From Bacilli bacterium (GTDB lineage: Bacteria > Bacillota_I > Bacilli_A > RF39 > UBA660), in assembly GCA_017411235.1 (NCBI GenBank), contig JAFPMR010000007.1, positions 1 to 20,325 on the forward strand: a DNA stretch of 20,325 nucleotides, written 5' to 3'. Under the pieces are notes generated by a model that searched no databases, was not told where the DNA came from, and saw only the letters and a list, made by a program, of their open reading frames with translations. The position numbers were made by a program, and so were the translations under genes. Shown here in pieces: positions 1,343 to 19,079 of the stretch (positions within the stretch are counted from its first letter, which is position 1; each line of letters begins with the position of its first letter).

Positions 1343-1965
1343 AAGCTTGCCTCATATTCTGCAACTGTTTTAATATTAATTAATGATGAAAATTTATTTT
1401 TCAACCATGTTTTAAATGTATCATCTTTTACTATAATTAAACATCCACTTGGTACATTCCCCATCATTTGTGAACTTGATGTTATTTTTGTGTTGTCTAA
1501 TGTTCTTATATCAATTTTTTCTGCACTTTGGCAATAATAAAACATATACGTAACATCTGTTACATTGCTTAAATCTAAATTAGATAAATCAAACTCTGTT
1601 GCATGTCTACATGAATTAAACATATATGTACATGTTGTTATTGTTACACCACTTTGAATTGTTAAACTAGGAATTGTTGTACCTGCATATCCACTTAATA
1701 AATATGCACAACTTGCTGTATTTATTGTTAATGGTGATGGCACTTTTTTTGCAACTTTCCTCCAACCAGGTAATGATGATGTTCCGTTTCCTATTGTTGT
1801 ATTAAAATACTCACTTAAATCTGCTCCACCGCCACCTGTTGTAATTTCTCCATTTTCTGCCATTGTTGCTATATCTGTAAACTTTGTTCCCTCTTGTAAA
1901 TTTAATGATGTATTGATTGTTGTTAAATCATTCTGTAAACTTTCTAAATAATCACTAGTAGTCAT
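1339..1965 (-). CDS. BspA-like (DUF285) repeat tail fibre or receptor-binding protein
   Basis: This 208-residue protein has an N-terminal segment resembling phage baseplate attachment regions (residues 1-55, ending in a Gly run GGGG). BspA-type repeats follow, recognisable by CTYMFNSC and VTYMFYYC around residues 112-145, with the intervening motif FDLSNLDLSNVTDV. DUF285/BspA repeats are known from surface proteins of gut bacteria and mycoplasmas that bind proteins or other cells. In a phage tail they most likely contact the host surface. The ATG overlaps the TAA of the BppU-like gene by one base, with GGAGG upstream. The C-terminal 35 residues (TFKTWLKNKF onward) also resemble the ends of BspA-like proteins. 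Its role as the receptor-binding protein is inference. Confidence 0.75.
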   Translation of the reverse strand: MTTSDYLESLQNDLTTINTSLNLQEGTKFTDIATMAENGEITTGGGGADLSEYFNTTIGNGTSSLPGWRKVAKKVPSPLTINTASCAYLLSGYAGTTIPSLTIQSGVTITTCTYMFNSCRHATEFDLSNLDLSNVTDVTYMFYYCQSAEKIDIRTLDNTKITSSSQMMGNVPSGCLIIVKDDTFKTWLKNKFSSLINIKTVAEYEASL

Positions 1966-3263
1966 TACTCATTACCTCCTGGAGTTGTCAATGTTGCTAA
2001 TATCGTATTTATATTTCCTATTGCATTTGATATACTATCATCAACATACTTTTTGTTTGTAAATTCTTTATCTTGTGTTGGTGCTATTGTGGTACTTTGT
2101 TGTGGGATAGAAGTAAATGTCTTTAATCCATTAAATGTCTGTTTGTCAGATGTCACACAAAAATTGCTACCAAGAGCTGTGTCTAAATATGTTACTCCTA
2201 TATTGCCTGATGTATTTACATATAATCTTATAGCTCTTATTTGCCCTTTGCTTGAAGAACTTACCGAAAAATAATACATATTAGCGAAATAAACATTTTC
2301 ACTAGGCGTTCCTATTTCCTGTATTGTTTTATAAATCGTAATAAAAATTGGTGTTACTTCGCCTATACTACTTACTGTTGAACTGCTGTCTTTTCTATAA
2401 TAAAAACTTATTGGTGTACCTACCCTTCTTCCCATAACATACAAACCTTTTTTATATTCACTAAAAACAAAAGGCTTATAATTTACATTTCCAATATCTT
2501 CTGCTAATTCACTTACTATTGATATTTCTGGCTTATTAGATAAATCATCATAAGCACCACTAAAATCACTTTTATTATTCCAACTTGTTTTTTCTTCACT
2601 TGTTACAAATTTATTATTCTGATTTATGTCTGTTACATAATCTGATAATAATTTATTAGTATCATCATAAGTTGTGCCACTATCACCTTTGTCGCCTTTT
2701 GGACCTGCTGGACCTGCTGGGCCTGCTGGGCCTGTTAAACCTCGCTCACCTTGAATTCCTTGAGGACCTGCTGGACCTGTATCACCTCTATCACCTTTGT
2801 CGCCTTTAAAATAGCCACTATCTACTTTATCTTGTAAATCATCTAATGTCTCATCAATTTCATTTAATTTGGTGTTTGCTATATCTATCCATTGAGGATA
2901 ATCTTCTTCTTCTTCGATTTCTGCATTAATACTAGGATTTACTATTACAAAGAATACATTACTTTTAAAAATAGGTATTTCATTTTCATTTGTTCCCTCT
3001 GTTATAACTAATTGTAAATCTAATTTACCTACTTTAGTTATAAGTGATTTAATAGGCAATTCATAAGTATTGTCTACTTTTGTTAACATTACATATGACT
3101 GTGTATTATTTCTATTTAATTCAAGCCTTGCTGTTCCATTTACAAAAGAATCAAAAGAGAAAACCAACTTTTCTTGTAGGTTTTCTCCATCATTTCCTAT
3201 TACACTTTTTGATAAATAAACTTTTCTTGTATTTTTCTCTATTTTTGCAATTATATTTTCCAT
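1965..3263 (-). CDS. BppU-like upper baseplate / tail fibre protein with collagen-like segment
   Basis: The 432-residue product begins with a beta-rich domain (about 1-115) of the BppU N-terminal type, which in lactococcal phages plugs fibres into the baseplate. A short acidic helix follows (116-150), then 14 Gly-X-Y triplets at residues 154-196 (GDKGDRGDTGPAGPQG and onward), which should trimerise as a collagen-like stalk. The C-terminal 230 residues are Ser/Thr/Tyr-rich beta structure and probably form a trimeric head; motifs such as FTNKKYVDDSI are common in tail fibres. The ATG at 3263 has AAAAGGATG about 11 bases upstream. The next gene starts on this stop codon. It likely carries or presents the host-binding head; the ligand is unknown. 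Confidence 0.75.
   Translation of the reverse strand: MENIIAKIEKNTRKVYLSKSVIGNDGENLQEKLVFSFDSFVNGTARLELNRNNTQSYVMLTKVDNTYELPIKSLITKVGKLDLQLVITEGTNENEIPIFKSNVFFVIVNPSINAEIEEEEDYPQWIDIANTKLNEIDETLDDLQDKVDSGYFKGDKGDRGDTGPAGPQGIQGERGLTGPAGPAGPAGPKGDKGDSGTTYDDTNKLLSDYVTDINQNNKFVTSEEKTSWNNKSDFSGAYDDLSNKPEISIVSELAEDIGNVNYKPFVFSEYKKGLYVMGRRVGTPISFYYRKDSSSTVSSIGEVTPIFITIYKTIQEIGTPSENVYFANMYYFSVSSSSKGQIRAIRLYVNTSGNIGVTYLDTALGSNFCVTSDKQTFNGLKTFTSIPQQSTTIAPTQDKEFTNKKYVDDSISNAIGNINTILATLTTPGGNE
2676..2804 (-). repeat. Collagen-like Gly-X-Y coding repeat
   Basis: Fourteen in-frame glycine triplets are encoded here. At the DNA level nine-base units such as GGACCTGCT and GGGCCTGCT (plus strand) recur. Local G+C is clearly higher than in the flanking AT-rich DNA because of Gly and Pro codons. 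Such tracts can expand or contract by slippage. Confidence 0.85.
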
Positions 3264-7750: not shown

Positions 7751-9784
7751 TTATACACCACCTTTTGCTAATGCACTATTTTTTCTATAAAATTCTAGTT
7801 CTTCGGCAAGTTGTTGTATATCTGTTTCTCTATTATTATAAAATTTATCTATTGTAAGAAATAGTGGATTACTATTAGCAGTTGGATTTATTGTAGGATT
7901 TACTGATGCATCCACACCAGTAGCTAATTCTCTCATCGCATTTTCAACTTGTGGTATTGTATCTTCAATTCCTTCAACATAACCCTCACCTAACATTTGT
8001 CCTTGCCATCTTGTTGCTTTTGATGGACTTGCAATTCCAAATATTGATTTTAAACCATTTAAAACGGCTTTACCAAATCCAGTTATCTTTTCCCATAACC
8101 AACTTGATACAGATTTAATTCCTTCCCACAAGCCAGCTACTAAATTTTTACCTATTTCAAATATACCTGAAATTCCTTTTGCAAATTCTTTAAGTATATT
8201 TACTGTGACTTTTCCTGCACCTATTACTGCTTCTGGTGCTGCTTTTAATATACCTTTGCCTAATTCTACTACTAAGTCCATGCCTAATTTTAAAATTTTA
8301 GGAAGGCTAGTTATTATCGTATTTATAATTTCTAAAATACACTCCAAAACTGCAGGAATTAAAACATCTATATTATTTATAATACCTTTTGCTAATGCTA
8401 CTACTATCTGTAAAGCAATTTTCACAAGTTTAGGCAAATTGTTTGTTATAAATAATATTATTGATTCTATTAGCTTATCTATTGTTTTTTGCAATTCTGT
8501 TGTATCTTGAGAAACTAAATCTAAAATATTGTCTATCATCATTGTAATTGAATCTAACAATTGTGGTACTAAATCTAAAAGCATTGTAGATATTTGTGGA
8601 AGTAATTCGCCTGTTAAATCTGCAATTCCTTTTAATATTTCAGGTGCTAATTGTTTTAATACAACACTTACATTTTTTACTACTGTTGTTATTGTACTTG
8701 CTAATTGTTTTGCATTGCCAGTTCCATTTATAAAATTATCCCATGCAGCTTTCATTTGTGATACACTGCCACTTATTGTTGATGATAGTTGTTGACTTGC
8801 TGTTCCTGCAATTTTTTGCATTTTTACATAATCAACTAATGCTTGTTGCATATCTGCATAATTACCCATTTGATAGTTTGTAGCATTTCCTTGTGCCTTA
8901 TTCCACTCATTTACTTTGTTAATAACTTCTTGCATTCCTTGTTTTGATCCTTTAATACCAAGTCTTAAATTATCAATTAAGGTAAAGTTACCTCTCATTA
9001 CTGCTGCAAAAGCATTTTGAACAGCTTCTTGACTTGCACCTGTTGATGCAACTATATCAGCTTGTGCTACTAAAATATCATTAGCAAGTTTTGCTGATTT
9101 TTCTGCATCGCCACCTAATGAGTCTTTTAATCCTACTGCATATGTATTTACTTGGTCATAATAATCTTTTGCACTTATTCCCATTGTTTTATAGGCATCT
9201 GTTGCATTCTTTTTTACTGTAGAAAAAGCTGTACCAAATAATCTTTCACTACCTTTGTGTGCTTTTTCAAGTTCTGCATATGATTTAACTCCTGCACCTA
9301 CAACTGCTGTTAAAGCACCTGCTACTGCACTTGTTACTTGTAACATTTTTTTTGATACTTCTAAAGCAACATCTCCAACTTTTTTTAAGCCATCTTTTAA
9401 TTTAGTTAAATCAGCTTTATTTGCATTTTTTAGTTCTTCATTCATTGATTTTAATGCATTTTCACTTTTTGCAATTTCTAAAGACAATTGATTATAGCTT
9501 TCTTTTTGCTGGTCGGTAAGTTTACTATAATCTCCCATTTGTCTTTGTGCTTCTTTTAGCTTATCTAATCTGTATGATGTTTCAAATATGTTCTTTTTTA
9601 ATACATCATATTTTTGTGCAAGTAAATCTGTGTTTTTAGGATCTAACTTCAAAGCCTGATTCAATGCTTTTAAGTCGCTATTTAATGCATATACTTGTTT
9701 GTCTGTTTGCTTTAATGCATCTTGTAATTTTGTGGTATTACCCCCAATTTCGATGACTATGCCTTTAATTTTAGAACTTGCCAT
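7751..9784 (-). CDS. Tail tape measure protein
   Basis: This 677-residue protein has an N-terminal alpha-helical coil (about 15-130, KLQDALKQTDKQVYALNSDL and onward). A conserved tape-measure core follows around 170-300, with YDQVNTYAVGLKDSLGG and TGASQEAVQNAFAAVMRGNF. Hydrophobic helices lie around 145-170 and 395-520, and the C-terminal portion includes FGIASPSKATRW. It sets tail length and is ejected with the DNA. At the usual 0.15 nm per residue the length implies a tail of roughly 100 nm. AGGAGGTAAGATAA before the ATG is strong and lies inside the end of the GIY-YIG gene, overlapping it by 14 bases. The expected tail assembly chaperone genes are not present upstream. Confidence 0.9.
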   Translation of the reverse strand: MASSKIKGIVIEIGGNTTKLQDALKQTDKQVYALNSDLKALNQALKLDPKNTDLLAQKYDVLKKNIFETSYRLDKLKEAQRQMGDYSKLTDQQKESYNQLSLEIAKSENALKSMNEELKNANKADLTKLKDGLKKVGDVALEVSKKMLQVTSAVAGALTAVVGAGVKSYAELEKAHKGSERLFGTAFSTVKKNATDAYKTMGISAKDYYDQVNTYAVGLKDSLGGDAEKSAKLANDILVAQADIVASTGASQEAVQNAFAAVMRGNFTLIDNLRLGIKGSKQGMQEVINKVNEWNKAQGNATNYQMGNYADMQQALVDYVKMQKIAGTASQQLSSTISGSVSQMKAAWDNFINGTGNAKQLASTITTVVKNVSVVLKQLAPEILKGIADLTGELLPQISTMLLDLVPQLLDSITMMIDNILDLVSQDTTELQKTIDKLIESIILFITNNLPKLVKIALQIVVALAKGIINNIDVLIPAVLECILEIINTIITSLPKILKLGMDLVVELGKGILKAAPEAVIGAGKVTVNILKEFAKGISGIFEIGKNLVAGLWEGIKSVSSWLWEKITGFGKAVLNGLKSIFGIASPSKATRWQGQMLGEGYVEGIEDTIPQVENAMRELATGVDASVNPTINPTANSNPLFLTIDKFYNNRETDIQQLAEELEFYRKNSALAKGGV

Positions 9785-10445
9785 TTATCTTACCTCCTTC
9801 CATATTAGAATATTTCCATATATAACCATGAAATTTATTTCTTTTACCACTGCAACACATACTTATATGAGAAGAACTTTTTAATCCTAATTCATTTACT
9901 GCATCTTGCATACACTCAAATGTTTTAATAAAGTTTTCTTCTAAATCATATTGATTAACTGCTCTACTATGATGGTTTTTTTTACCTATCATGTATTGTC
10001 TATGTTTTTCTTTGGTTTCCTCACTATGTTTATACCCTAAACATTTTTGTTTTCCAATATGTGAAATACTCATTTTTTTTCTTGTTTCTAATGTATGTTT
10101 TCTTCCTTTATTAGCCATTTTTATTTTATATTTTGTTAATTCGCTTAAATTAGTAATTCCTCCACCTTTTTGTATATTATAGCCATATTTTTCATTTGTA
10201 GTGTTATATTTTTTTATATATTGTTTTTCTAAAGTTTCTGCATTATCTTTTGTTAAATTTTCATATATAATTTGATGATGAAAATTATCCCATCCATACT
10301 TAATAATTGCATTAAAAAATCTTGGTGATTTTTTATAACCCATACCATTGCTCCATCTTCTTGATACAGGTTGTTGATTAGTTATTCCTATATATTTCTT
10401 ACCATTAATTTTGTTAGTATGAATATATAAACTATAGTTTTTCAT
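9771..10445 (-). CDS. GIY-YIG homing endonuclease with NUMOD3 and IENR1/NUMOD1-type DNA-binding repeats
   Basis: The 224-residue product opens with a GIY-YIG nuclease domain: SLYIHTNKINGKKYIGIT carries the two motif halves, Arg follows in SRRW, Glu in AETLEKQYI is the metal ligand, and YGYNIQKGG closes the domain near residue 90. NUMOD3-like basic repeats follow (ANKGRKHTLETRKKM; GYKHSEETKEKHRQ), then an IENR1-type segment (NQYDLEENFIKTFECMQDAV) ending FHGYIWKY. It is a free-standing mobile nuclease that would cut cognate DNA lacking it. The start at 10445 is chosen because AAAGGAAG is seven bases upstream. The longer frame would run through a terminator hairpin. It sits between major tail protein and tape measure genes, where chaperone genes are expected. 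Confidence 0.9.
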   Translation of the reverse strand: MKNYSLYIHTNKINGKKYIGITNQQPVSRRWSNGMGYKKSPRFFNAIIKYGWDNFHHQIIYENLTKDNAETLEKQYIKKYNTTNEKYGYNIQKGGGITNLSELTKYKIKMANKGRKHTLETRKKMSISHIGKQKCLGYKHSEETKEKHRQYMIGKKNHHSRAVNQYDLEENFIKTFECMQDAVNELGLKSSSHISMCCSGKRNKFHGYIWKYSNMEGGKINGKF

Positions 10446-10475
10446 CATATCACTTCCTTTTTCCTTATGAATACT

Positions 10476-10499
10476 AAAAAAACTACCCTTACGAGTAGT
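10476..10499 (-). terminator. Rho-independent terminator-like hairpin after the major tail protein gene
   Basis: On the minus strand ACTACTC-GTAA-GGGTAGT forms a seven-pair stem (one G-U) with a four-base loop, followed by seven T residues. It lies 27 bases past the major tail protein stop and before the GIY-YIG gene. It could lower expression of tape measure and downstream genes relative to the abundant major tail protein. Confidence 0.7.
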
Positions 10500-10505
10500 C
10501 TTTTT

Positions 10506-10523
10506 ACTACTCATAAGAGTAGT
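10506..10523 (-). repeat. Second near-identical palindrome upstream of the terminator
   Basis: ACTACTC-TTAT-GAGTAGT on the minus strand is a perfect seven-pair palindrome three bases after the major tail protein stop. It is almost the same as the terminator stem, with a 24-base period. It lacks a T-run. It may protect the 3' end of the mRNA or have arisen by tandem duplication of the terminator. Confidence 0.6.
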
Positions 10524-12385: not shown

Positions 12386-13549
12386 TTAAGCACTAACTGG
12401 TTTTGCAATTAGACAGAATGCTTTATCTGCAACTGCTTCAACACCAACAAACTTACGACCTAAAATACGAACTAAATCATATTCCATCTTAGTCTTGTCA
12501 TCGTATTTCATTTCAATACCTTCGCCACTTGGATAGTTAGCTAATGCACCATGGTTGAAATCTCCAACTATCATGTATACATCTCCTGAACTTGCAGTGT
12601 CATATGCAGGTAAAGAATTGTTGAATACAACTTTAATTCCTTCAAATATATCTAATGCATAATTATTAGTGTATTGAATTTCTTTAAATTTAGCATATGT
12701 TAATTTATTCATAACAATTGTTAAATTATTTGCTTCATCGCTTAGATTTCCAGTAGCTTGAGCTGTTAAGCTGATTGATGGAGCTGCAGTAATCTTGTTA
12801 GCACTTACAGTATCATATACACCATCGCTATTTGCAGTTAGTGATTGTGGTAATGCTGCAATCTTAGCAACTAATATATCAGCACATTTCTTAGCTATTC
12901 TATAAGTAATTTCATCATAGATATAACGTAAGAAATCTTCTGATCTCATATCAATTACTTCATCTGATAAGCTTATCCATTTTTTGATGCTCATAGGTAC
13001 TAAAGTTACTACCCCTAATACTAATTCTTGTTCTGTTACTGCACCATTTCCTTCTTGATGAATTATTGCAGGATCTCCACTTACTTCAAATTGAACTTTT
13101 AAGTTACCTTTTACTGAAAGTGAACGAACTCTTGACATTAGTTCTTCTCTTTCCCATGCAGTTTTAACAATGTCATATACCATATCTGGTACTTCAACTG
13201 TTGCACTATTTCCTGTTGCATATCCTCCTGTAGTTACCAATGCTCTTAACTCTTTATCATCATTTGTTTTGATATAGTTAGCAAATGCATCGATATATTC
13301 TTTTGAATTTCTTAATTCTTTGTTGTTTTCCATTTCTTTCTCCTCCTTAACAACTTCTTTTACTGCAAATGATTTTTCTTCCATTTCTTTTGCAGCTTTT
13401 TCATTTTCGATATGCTCTTCAATTTTTCTTTCTTCTTCGTTTAAAGTTTCAACTTCTTTATTAAGTTCTTCAACTTTTTCTATATCTTCTGTTTTTTCAA
13501 CTTCTTCACGAATTTCAAGTTTACGAGCTTCGATTTGTTCCTTAGTCAT
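12386..13549 (-). CDS. Major capsid protein, HK97 fold, with N-terminal delta/scaffold domain
   Basis: This 387-residue protein begins with about 80 residues of Lys/Glu-rich coiled coil (LEIREEVEKTEDIEKVEEL and onward), the delta domain that acts as an internal scaffold and is normally removed by the phage protease. The HK97-type capsid fold follows from about residue 105, with TTGGYATGNSATVEVPDMV, KWISLSDEVIDM, ILVAKIAALPQSL, GDFNHGALANYPSGEG and VGVEAVADKAFCLI. The cleavage site cannot be fixed by eye but should lie in 80-110. The gene follows two hairpins and has AAGGAGGTCAAT before the ATG. It is the main shell protein and is expected to be the most abundant product here. Confidence 0.92.
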   Translation of the reverse strand: MTKEQIEARKLEIREEVEKTEDIEKVEELNKEVETLNEEERKIEEHIENEKAAKEMEEKSFAVKEVVKEEKEMENNKELRNSKEYIDAFANYIKTNDDKELRALVTTGGYATGNSATVEVPDMVYDIVKTAWEREELMSRVRSLSVKGNLKVQFEVSGDPAIIHQEGNGAVTEQELVLGVVTLVPMSIKKWISLSDEVIDMRSEDFLRYIYDEITYRIAKKCADILVAKIAALPQSLTANSDGVYDTVSANKITAAPSISLTAQATGNLSDEANNLTIVMNKLTYAKFKEIQYTNNYALDIFEGIKVVFNNSLPAYDTASSGDVYMIVGDFNHGALANYPSGEGIEMKYDDKTKMEYDLVRILGRKFVGVEAVADKAFCLIAKPVSA

Positions 13550-13625
13550 ATTGACCTCCTTATTGTTTTTTGCTATTTAAGGCATAACTACCATTATTCC
13601 TCTCCAGGATTTATTAAACGAATTA

Positions 13626-13641
13626 GTTGGTATCCACCAAC
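13626..13641 (-). repeat. Hairpin in the leader of the major capsid gene
   Basis: GTTGGT-GGAT-ACCAAC on the minus strand is a six-pair palindrome with a four-base loop, directly after the terminator-like hairpin and about 75 bases before the capsid start. It has no T-run. It may stabilise the 5' end of a capsid transcript or be an RNA processing site. Confidence 0.5.
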
Positions 13642-13666
13642 AAAAAAAGAGTTCTCCAACTCTTTT
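13642..13666 (-). terminator. Terminator-like hairpin between prohead protease and major capsid genes
   Basis: On the minus strand AAAAGAGTT-GGAG-AACTCTTTT forms a nine-pair stem with a four-base loop. The T-run totals seven, part of it inside the stem. It begins 12 bases after the protease stop. The stem is AT-rich, so termination is probably partial; processing is an alternative. Confidence 0.6.
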
Positions 13667-13678
13667 CTCATATTCGTA

Positions 13679-14293
13679 TTAACCTAATTTCTTTAATAAT
13701 TCTTCTTTAGCTTTTGCTAATGCTTGTTTTCTTTCTTCTTCTTTTAGTTCTTCTTCATGTTGTTTTCTTAATTCTTCTCTTCTTTTAGTAAAATCATCAC
13801 ATTTAATATCTCTAGCAACACTTACATCAGTTGCATTATAAAATGGTTGATCTACAACTGATACATCAAATACTTTACCAATTCTTTTAATTGTTCTTGT
13901 ATCTGTATCATAATCGTATTCATCTTCATCAACTGTAAATGCAAATGATTGTTTATCTATTAATCCACTTTTTATTGCATTAAATATATCTCTATGTGTT
14001 GATACATTATCTTGTAGTTTAGCATCCATAAACAATCCTTTTTCATCTACACTTAATTCAAGTGATTTATTTCTTGTTCTTGCTAATACCATAAAACTAT
14101 CATTATGATTATAACGTAATACAACATCTGACATATCTGCTTCATCAAATGCCCTTGAATCAATAGTCTCGGTATAACTATAAGTTTCTGGACTATTAAA
14201 AACTGCAGCATATCCTTTTATTTCCATTTTGCCATCTTCGGTATCTTCTGCCCTAAATTGTATGTCTAGTTTTCTAATTTCCTTCTCCTTCAT
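13679..14293 (-). CDS. Prohead protease, HK97 type (S78-like)
   Basis: The 204-residue product has the signature of HK97-type prohead proteases: IKGYAAVFNSPE near the start, His63 in YNHND, and Ser116 in KQSFAF as the catalytic pair. KVFDVSVVDQPFYNATDVSV is the conserved strand region. Residues 165-204 are a charged helix rich in Lys and Glu that probably targets the protease into the prohead and may be self-cleaved. It removes the delta domain of the capsid protein. Its start overlaps the portal gene by 20 bases, and the ribosome-binding site GGAGGAG lies in the portal C-terminal codons. Confidence 0.92.
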   Translation of the reverse strand: MKEKEIRKLDIQFRAEDTEDGKMEIKGYAAVFNSPETYSYTETIDSRAFDEADMSDVVLRYNHNDSFMVLARTRNKSLELSVDEKGLFMDAKLQDNVSTHRDIFNAIKSGLIDKQSFAFTVDEDEYDYDTDTRTIKRIGKVFDVSVVDQPFYNATDVSVARDIKCDDFTKRREELRKQHEEELKEEERKQALAKAKEELLKKLG

Positions 14294-17708: not shown

Positions 17709-18516
17709 TTAGAATAATCCCCATTCAGCAAATTTTTCAAATCCACCAACTTTATTAATATATTCTCTTGCTATTTCTACTATCTCACTATATGGTTTAC
17801 CATCTATTGTATCATCGCCAATAGCACAACATAACTCTACTACTTTGCCTGTTTCTTGTGCTTTTAGGAATGCATATATATTAACTGATACATCGGCTTT
17901 AGATAAGTCTTTGCCATGTAATCCTCCACCTGTAACACTTTGTGCCATATCACTGCCTAACTTTCTATTTGTAGCACCTGTGTCAACGTCAGTTCCACCT
18001 GTCCATTCTCCAAGTGGATTAATTATTATTTTCATATTTGTTGTTTCTAATGTATTGTGTATTACTTTTAGTATGTCTTGCTCTTTCGCATTTGATTGAC
18101 ATACTATTACTTTATCATCTGTTAATATATATTTACCATCGCATTTAAAATTATCATATATATTTCTTGCTAACTCACTTAAATCTTTTTCATTCCAATT
18201 TAATGGTACACCTTTAAATATTCCATTGTCGCCACATCTTATTTCTTCTTCTTGATTTTCTGCTAGGTGTTTATCTTGAGGCACTACAACTAAATCTAAT
18301 GCCATTTTCCCTGCGATTCTATTAACTATGGCCTGTACCTCGTCTTTTTTAAAAACTTCGCTTGTTTCGGCTATTATGTGGCAAATACCATGTCCTATTA
18401 ATACTTCCACTGCAATTTTTGGTCTTTTACTCTTTTTATATGCTAAATCTACCAATGCTCCTGCTATTCTATCTGCTATCTTGTCAGGGATGCGATGGGT
18501 TACACTTTTCTATCAT
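17709..18516 (-). CDS. metK: Phage-type S-adenosylmethionine synthetase, requires a +1 frameshift after codon 10
   Basis: Methionine adenosyltransferase makes SAM from methionine and ATP. The ATG at 18516 has AAAGGAAG about ten bases upstream and reads MIEKCNPSHP, then UGA. One base later the frame continues DKIADRIAGALVDLAY and runs to the stop at 17709, giving 268 residues if joined. Joined, it has the catalytic HPDK (His9, Asp11), GDNG (Asp96), GGTDVDTGATNRK (Asp178, Arg184, Lys185) and GKDLSKAD (Lys202, Lys206, Asp208), matching the known active-site pattern of MetK. Without the shift, His9 is lost and initiation would have to use a weak TTG at 18455. It is much shorter than bacterial MetK (about 380-400). 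It probably supplies SAM to the nearby DNA methyltransferase. Programmed frameshift, mutation and sequencing indel are all possible. Confidence 0.85.
18483..18492 (-). promoter_or_regulatory. Putative +1 ribosomal frameshift site (CAU CCC UGA C) in metK
   Basis: In the initiating frame the mRNA reads CAU CCC UGA C. If the proline tRNA slips from CCC to CCU, the next codon is GAC (Asp), restoring the invariant HPDK motif without loss or gain of a residue. The context UGA C is the same as in the prfB site (CUU UGA C). No internal Shine-Dalgarno-like stimulator is visible. Confidence 0.6.
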
Positions 18517-19058
18517 CGCACATCACTTCCTTTCTCTATTTCTATATTTAATAATTTATATAATTTTCTTGTACTTATATTTAATTTAATCATGGCATCT
18601 TTTATACTTTCATATTCAATACCTTCAATTGTTATTTTTCTTTTTCTTTTACTTGGTTGCCCTAATTTTTTTAATCTCATTTTCTCTATAGCTTCTTTTG
18701 TGTGATGTTTGCCTTTAAAAGGATTATTTTCCAACATCCTCTTTCTTTGCCTTTCCTTTAATGTCCCATAATTCATATTATATTTTTGAGTGCACCACTC
18801 TAAATTAGAAACATTGTTATTCATAGAATTTTCATCTTTATGATTTACTTGTGGCAAGTTATATGGATTATCTATAAAAGCTTCAGCAACTAATCTATGA
18901 ACTGCTTTAAATTTTCTTTTATTATTTTGATAAAGATAAACTCCTAAATAGTTTTTTCTTTCATATTGTTTAAGTATTTTGTTTCTTTTAATACTATAAA
19001 CTTCTCCGTTTTCGTTAACTTTATAATCTGTAAAGCCTTCTATTATTTTCCAATTCAT
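18513..19058 (-). CDS. HNH homing endonuclease with NUMOD4 and NUMOD1-type modules
   Basis: The 181-residue product begins with a NUMOD4 module (WKIIEGFTDYKVNENGEVYS). An HNH_3 nuclease follows, with His54 in VHRLVAEAF, His73 in NHKDEN and Asn85 in VSNLEWCT. Next come a NUMOD3-like basic stretch (NPFKGKHHTKEAIEKMRLKK) and a NUMOD1-like helix-turn-helix segment (IEGIEYESIKDAMIKLNIS). This is a free-standing homing endonuclease of the type that spreads between phages. GGAGG (19067-19071) is eight bases from the ATG at 19058, so this start is chosen over in-frame ATGs at 19064 and 19073. Its stop overlaps the metK ATG (ATGA), and its last codons contain the metK ribosome-binding site. It separates the methyltransferase from metK. 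Confidence 0.92.
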   Translation of the reverse strand: MNWKIIEGFTDYKVNENGEVYSIKRNKILKQYERKNYLGVYLYQNNKRKFKAVHRLVAEAFIDNPYNLPQVNHKDENSMNNNVSNLEWCTQKYNMNYGTLKERQRKRMLENNPFKGKHHTKEAIEKMRLKKLGQPSKRKRKITIEGIEYESIKDAMIKLNISTRKLYKLLNIEIEKGSDVR

Positions 19059-19079
19059 AATCATATCCTCCATATAATT

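Follow-up and report, generated by a model that had tools for sequence, protein, structure and literature searches.

The window analysed here, the whole 20,325-nt stretch at positions 1-20,325 of contig JAFPMR010000007.1 (assembly GCA_017411235.1), comes from a Bacilli bacterium (RF39; UBA660) and carries a phage metK-like gene on its minus strand. The start codon of this gene, ATG 18516-18514, is preceded by the ribosome-binding-site-like sequence GGAAGTGAT (18522..18530), with GGAAG at 18530. The ten codons from this start read MIEKCNPSHP, resembling the MIEKVNPxHP start of relatives, and end in CCC (18489-18487), followed directly by UGA (18486-18484); this frame-0 reading occupies 18484..18516. 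In the +1 frame translation resumes at GAC (Asp; 18485-18483) with DKIADRIAGAL and continues for 258 codons to a stop that ends at 17709 (17709..18485). The shift site, CAT CCC TGA C, lies at 18483..18492, and TAG at 18512-18510 is the 5' limit of the MetK frame. The preliminary description of an ATG at 18516, MIEKCNPSHP, UGA and a clean +1 frame is thus exact when read on the minus strand. Decoding of the UGA as an amino acid is no help, as frame 0 meets a TAG five codons later. The presence of a structured RNA, such as a group I intron, was likewise rejected, since a search of the window against Rfam returned three matches, all far below the gathering thresholds and none near metK.

The open reading frame immediately 5' of metK (18513..19073, minus strand) encodes a homing-type endonuclease, with HNH_3 and NUMOD3 matches above the Pfam cut-off, a NUMOD4 match just below it, and the PHROG annotation 'HNH endonuclease'; its stop codon overlaps the start of metK. 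An N6/N4 DNA methylase gene (PF01555; 19114..20214, minus strand) lies 5' of the endonuclease. A second homing-type endonuclease, with GIY-YIG, NUMOD1 and NUMOD3 domains and a match to TIGR01453, is found at 9771-10514 on the minus strand, between the gene for the major tail protein and that for the tape measure. A tail assembly chaperone is usual at this position; besides the endonuclease, no open reading frame of at least 60 aa is listed on that strand between the two genes.

The +1-frame product of the window gene (P0001) matches PF00438 (S-AdoMet_synt_N) at 36.9 bits, above the gathering threshold of 33.1 bits, and the protein of one recoded relative discussed below, L081, scores 30.7 bits, below that threshold. 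A close in-frame relative (P0004) reaches 58.4 bits against TIGR01034, for which the cut-off is 309.4 bits, and falls in PHROG_1569, annotated as unknown function. In a profile of 16 relatives the HPDK motif aligns to that of solved SAM synthases, including chain 5h9u_C; the His and Asp of this motif are catalytic. Short phage MetK-like proteins are about 257 aa long, carry PF00438 and HPDK, and are often encoded beside a DNA methylase or a terminase small subunit gene. The window gene product is by its sequence of this short form, and we infer that it synthesizes SAM. It shares its length of about 257 aa, PF00438 and HPDK with the PHROG_1569 proteins, but differs from them in that nearly all of those examined are encoded in a single frame. 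A MetK-like protein of 357 aa (P0002), whose C-terminal half is apparently repeated, was also seen and may be an assembly chimera.

Of 585 confirmed relatives in IMG/VR, the 80 best-scoring loci were compared, and all 80 have a MIEKVNPxHPDK-type start in one frame. This places the join correctly between the Pro and Asp of HPDK, as had been described, and identifies the shift as a derived minority allele; a family-wide CCC UGA shift is not what is found, as all 80 of these best loci have CAU CCN GAC in one frame, an arrangement in close relatives that had been named beforehand as a refuting observation. The in-frame pattern occurs at least 120 times in IMG/VR and at least 117 times in GTDB genomes, and 29 named phage records have a tblastn match. 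MetK matches were obtained for 319 of 356 sequences, of which 313 were scored in frame by script and four are truly shifted: the window and three others, L081, L082 and L083. Two further candidates were rejected as shifted; the matches of L344 (scored 'shift') and L334 (scored 'other') start deep in the gene, and their own starts have HPDK in frame. The 319 loci include duplicates and reduce to 260 that are distinct in the stretch around the start, 254 of which have an exact HPDK in frame. The shifted allele is, on these comparisons, derived, with nearly all of the relatives examined in frame.

The three further shifted phages were found in a scan of IMG/VR, and a broader scan returned the same three. 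In all four loci the site is CAU CCC UGA, followed by C in three and by U in L082. An IMG/VR scan with equally strict requirements for the flanking sequence found no insertion of A, C or G at the same point; the shifted pattern has no occurrence in GTDB genomes, and the window's own site sequence has none in IMG/VR. A looser IMG/VR pattern matched 38 stretches, of which 35 gave no match to MetK. We built a tree from 70 MetK bodies starting after the shift (the four shifted genes, their near relatives and 45 random others), on which the window groups with L001-L003, L082 with L020, and L081 with L083. These three positions require three changes to account for the four shifted loci, a number forced by the starred branches of the tree, and none of 200 bootstrap trees (0%) unites the shifted loci, although the bootstrap is not fully settled. 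The proposal of a +1 shift at CCC_UGA_Y thus holds in that the site recurs at three positions on the MetK tree in genes that are otherwise open, and has to be narrowed in that the allele is rare and derived. The site is present with both frames intact in four loci from these divergent parts of the tree, and nearly all relatives examined are without it.

One-base indels are common errors and the compared loci are metagenome contigs, so that an extra base introduced in sequencing or assembly has to be considered. The same site is present in the window and in three IMG/VR contigs whose data-set numbers differ, and the N-truncated 248-aa reading of the window gene (P0003) is represented by one sequence on 10 contigs, perhaps including the window's own. 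No break is seen in the other gene-length open reading frames of the window, which is a weak point, as open reading frames are open by definition. Together, recurrence and the integrity of the genes make a strong case against sequencing error, judged from the sequences, and we consider it extremely unlikely. Two database proteins are candidates for further shifted alleles, as both begin at the point expected for the annotated start of such a gene: P0027 (244 aa) has the same start point as the window's truncated reading, but its longest contig has 1648 bases and may simply end there; P0084, from a Treponema MAG, begins MPDK and may use a rare start codon.

Each of the four shifted loci has a MetK frame that stays open for 256-258 codons, with its motifs conserved, and the random disruptions elsewhere in the gene that had been named as a sign of decay are absent from these codons in all four genes. 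DK(I/V/L)ADRIAGA is retained in every one of them. Of the changes between L081 and L083, both shifted, 10 are synonymous and 3 non-synonymous (p = 2.7e-5, two-sided binomial test); by this comparison metK is under purifying selection in the pair. These observations bear on the possibility that a homing-linked one-base insertion has broken metK and left it as a passenger gene making little or no full protein. An endonuclease could indeed carry a resistant but broken target, and the fold analysis described below found no stimulatory element; against this stand the lack of a second lesion in the 256-258 codons of the four genes, the purifying selection between L081 and L083, and the finding of UGA-forming insertions only. 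The sequence case against a recently broken gene is good, though it comes mostly from the one pair, L081 and L083, and we regard a broken passenger as distinctly unlikely.

Alternatively, translation might terminate at the UGA and re-initiate internally to give an N-truncated MetK-like protein without HPDK. Candidate internal starts exist, at TTG of residue 21 in the window, where P0003 as listed begins, and at GTG of residue 13 in L081 and L083. The MetK frame of L082, however, has no ATG, GTG or TTG before residue 190, so re-initiation at those codons cannot yield the protein there, and the retention of DK(I/V/L)ADRIAGA in all four loci also argues against this route, which we judge very improbable.

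The shift site itself has the elements expected for recoding: in the window a shift-prone P-site codon is followed by an A-site stop codon, and the +1 frame is open beyond them. CCC is rare in these phages, accounting for 0 of 154 proline codons in the long open reading frames of the window (1 of 163 with hand-chosen open reading frames), 2 of 64 in L081, 1 of 75 in L082 and 3 of 56 in L083; it occupies all four shift sites, and the same position in 29 of 254 in-frame relatives. The addition of a C to CCT yields CCC T at once, so the use of CCC may partly reflect the mutation. A stimulatory structure or an internal Shine-Dalgarno sequence is frequent at programmed +1 frameshift sites, without being universal. 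No downstream stimulatory structure was found at any of the four shifted loci (fold z-scores of -0.31 to 0.13, for pseudoknot-free folds), and no internal Shine-Dalgarno sequence is seen by eye at the window site. In prfB, which encodes RF2, a +1 frameshift takes place at CUU_UGA_C; the shifted metK resembles it in the early in-frame UGA, the +1 direction and, in three of four loci, the following C, but differs in having no internal Shine-Dalgarno sequence by eye, in not encoding a release factor and in not being family-wide.

The same slip codon and stop are known from other genes. CCC_UGA supports +1 shifting in tsh of the Listeria phages PSA, A118 and A500, where the stop codon but no structure is named as an element of the site, and at pheL it is reported to shift at 15% in E. 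coli K12 and 1.9% in Salmonella (PMC5009743). As in the window, the Listeria shift uses the rare proline codon CCC directly before UGA in a phage gene. In those phages the shift adds a further product to a tail protein gene, whereas in the window it falls ten codons into the gene, within a conserved motif, and nearly all of the protein depends on it. Taking these sequence features together, we consider that real, used +1 shifting at the metK site is probable.

The homing endonuclease directly 5' of metK and a mosaic junction between the two genes, neither of which figured in the preliminary description, provide a likely reason for the shifted allele. In L083 an open reading frame with HNH_3 and NUMOD4 matches adjoins metK at the same place as in the window. 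L082 has a 50-aa open reading frame with NUMOD3 adjoining metK, which we read as a remnant. In L081 the shift is present and an endonuclease beside metK is absent; at the position of the HNH gene in its near-copy L083, L081 has a 259-aa open reading frame (1488-2267, minus strand) with weak HTH-like and TRM-like matches. With three queries against the 2.5 kb 5' of the 319 loci, 29 of these under 600 nt, endonuclease matches adjoining metK were confined to the window and L083. Another four loci, on three contigs and all in frame, have matches some 0.76 to 2 kb away. This search overlooked the L082 remnant, and short remnants elsewhere may therefore have been overlooked too. L082 also encodes LuxS (PF02664) and a second open reading frame without a significant Pfam match between its methylase gene and metK (13104-13933, minus strand), an arrangement that suggests a phage-borne SAM-recycling set.

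An upstream open reading frame could be assigned in 243 of the 260 distinct loci, 239 of which are in frame (L334 and L344 included). Fifty of these in-frame neighbours are methylase-like by motif and 189 were scanned against Pfam; among the families listed, none beside the 239 distinct in-frame metK genes is NUMOD, HNH_3 or GIY-YIG. The Pfam scan of 98 in-frame neighbours gave 27 families, two of them outside this listing, and another HNH type (PF01844) in 2 of the 98. Compared with 0 of 239, the association of endonuclease and shift has a Fisher p of 2.0e-4 for two of four shifted loci, and of 1.7e-6 for three of four when the remnant is included; it remains small, as there are only four shifted loci and L081 and L083 are near-copies and hence not independent. 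The recoded insert is absent from relatives that have no endonuclease, with one exception, L081, which has the insert without the endonuclease. Relatives of the window endonuclease were found at three IMG/VR loci, one of which (L356) has no MetK-like gene, by eye, in its list of open reading frames.

These neighbourhoods also bear on a regulatory explanation, in which a programmed +1 frameshift, comparable to those of prfB and antizyme, would adjust MetK output, for instance by sensing termination or the supply of proline-tRNA, with the endonuclease incidental. The shared site, the open frames, the rare CCC and the UGA context would all suit such a role, as would the shifted L081 with no endonuclease. 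It fits poorly with the lack of the shift in nearly all relatives examined and with the HNH/NUMOD gene or remnant beside three of the four shifted loci, and we think it unlikely.

The junction between the two genes was compared between loci over the 25 nt 5' of the ATG and the first 30 nt of metK. The window and L082 are 0.873 identical here, ranking first of 259, with the next locus at 0.745 and the median at 0.636. The bulk of this signal comes from the 25 nt 5' of the start codon (0.84, next 0.72); over the first 30 nt of metK the identity of 0.90 is barely above that of the in-frame L127 (0.867). The stretch common to the two loci (18484..18535 in the window, minus strand) covers the endonuclease tail, the ribosome-binding site and the recoded metK start with CCC UGA. 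In both, the open reading frame before metK ends in KGSDVR; among the distinct loci only these two have GTGATGTGCGATGAT close to the start, and the likewise shared AACCCATCGCATCCC is found in 0 of 254 in-frame loci. GGAAGTGAT also lies 5' of the window's other endonuclease, so part of the junction match is an ordinary ribosome-binding site. The resemblance does not extend into the gene: L082 ranks 107th for the window over the first 60 nt after the join and 77th from +60 to +300 of the metK body (0.675), where the in-frame L001 is first (0.912). Over the last 470 nt L082 is 8th of 248 for the window, and the window is the best match of L082 (0.777 against 0.772). The two loci therefore share the endonuclease tail and the recoded metK start, and little beyond. 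L081 and L083 agree at 98% in metK and at 96% over the last 25 nt before it, and are unlike further 5'. The mosaic of the window and L082 is the pattern expected from co-conversion with a homing endonuclease, although it is a single pair and no proof.

We propose that the HPDK motif of this metK-like gene is split by CCC_UGA, that a +1 slip restores the protein, and that the allele is likely due to the neighbouring homing endonuclease; on balance we hold this to be slightly more likely than not. Ribosomes would start at ATG 18516 and, on arriving at CCC, have UGA as the A-site codon; a fraction would then slip from CCC to CCU, joining HP to DK and giving the full protein. The endonuclease, in turn, would have as its target the conserved DNA encoding HPDK in phages that have no endonuclease, and repair would copy in both the endonuclease and the recoded 5' end of metK. 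The extra base in the recoded copy would remove the target, and the shift-prone CCC_UGA would let the phage retain MetK. The firm elements here are the site, its recurrence, the open frames, purifying selection in one pair, the endonuclease linkage and the mosaic junction; from these we infer that shifting occurs, that the endonuclease cuts at the HPDK DNA and that the extra base blocks cutting. Reading the junction as an endonuclease cassette is, from sequence comparison, nearly an even proposition. The fuller proposal, in which the HNH endonuclease spreads together with a recoded metK start that one base makes uncuttable and CCC_UGA shifting keeps productive, is put forward more tentatively.

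The mobA/gene 60 insert of phage T4 is reportedly a mobile cassette. It offers a close parallel, as an HNH gene lies 5' of a gene whose 5' part needs recoding. In T4 the mobA HNH endonuclease gene lies 5' of gene 60, and the insert there is overcome by a 50-nt bypass (PMC3014915, PMC5009743); protection from cleavage has been suggested for this insert (PMC5009743). The window differs in having a single inserted base, passed by a +1 slip and not by a hop over 50 nt, in encoding a MetK-like protein and not a topoisomerase subunit, and in that the gene is unsplit. The recoded metK start is predicted to be resistant to cleavage. No report of a recoded phage metK-like gene was found in the literature, judged by titles and the openings of abstracts of the papers listed. 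What appears to be new here is an HNH/NUMOD homing endonuclease directly 5' of a recoded metK, in the window and L083, with a remnant in L082.

If the proposal is true, this locus would repeat the T4 mobA/gene 60 partnership in minimal form, with a single base as the insert. It would bear on the old question of why programmed frameshifts arise in genes that can do without them: in the metK-like family the in-frame state is usual, the shift is found repeatedly at a single base and is adjoined by a mobile endonuclease, making selfish DNA testable as a source of recoding. Such genes may be called as truncated from internal starts, which counsels caution in their annotation, and a metabolic-type enzyme would join the list of proteins made by +1 shifting.
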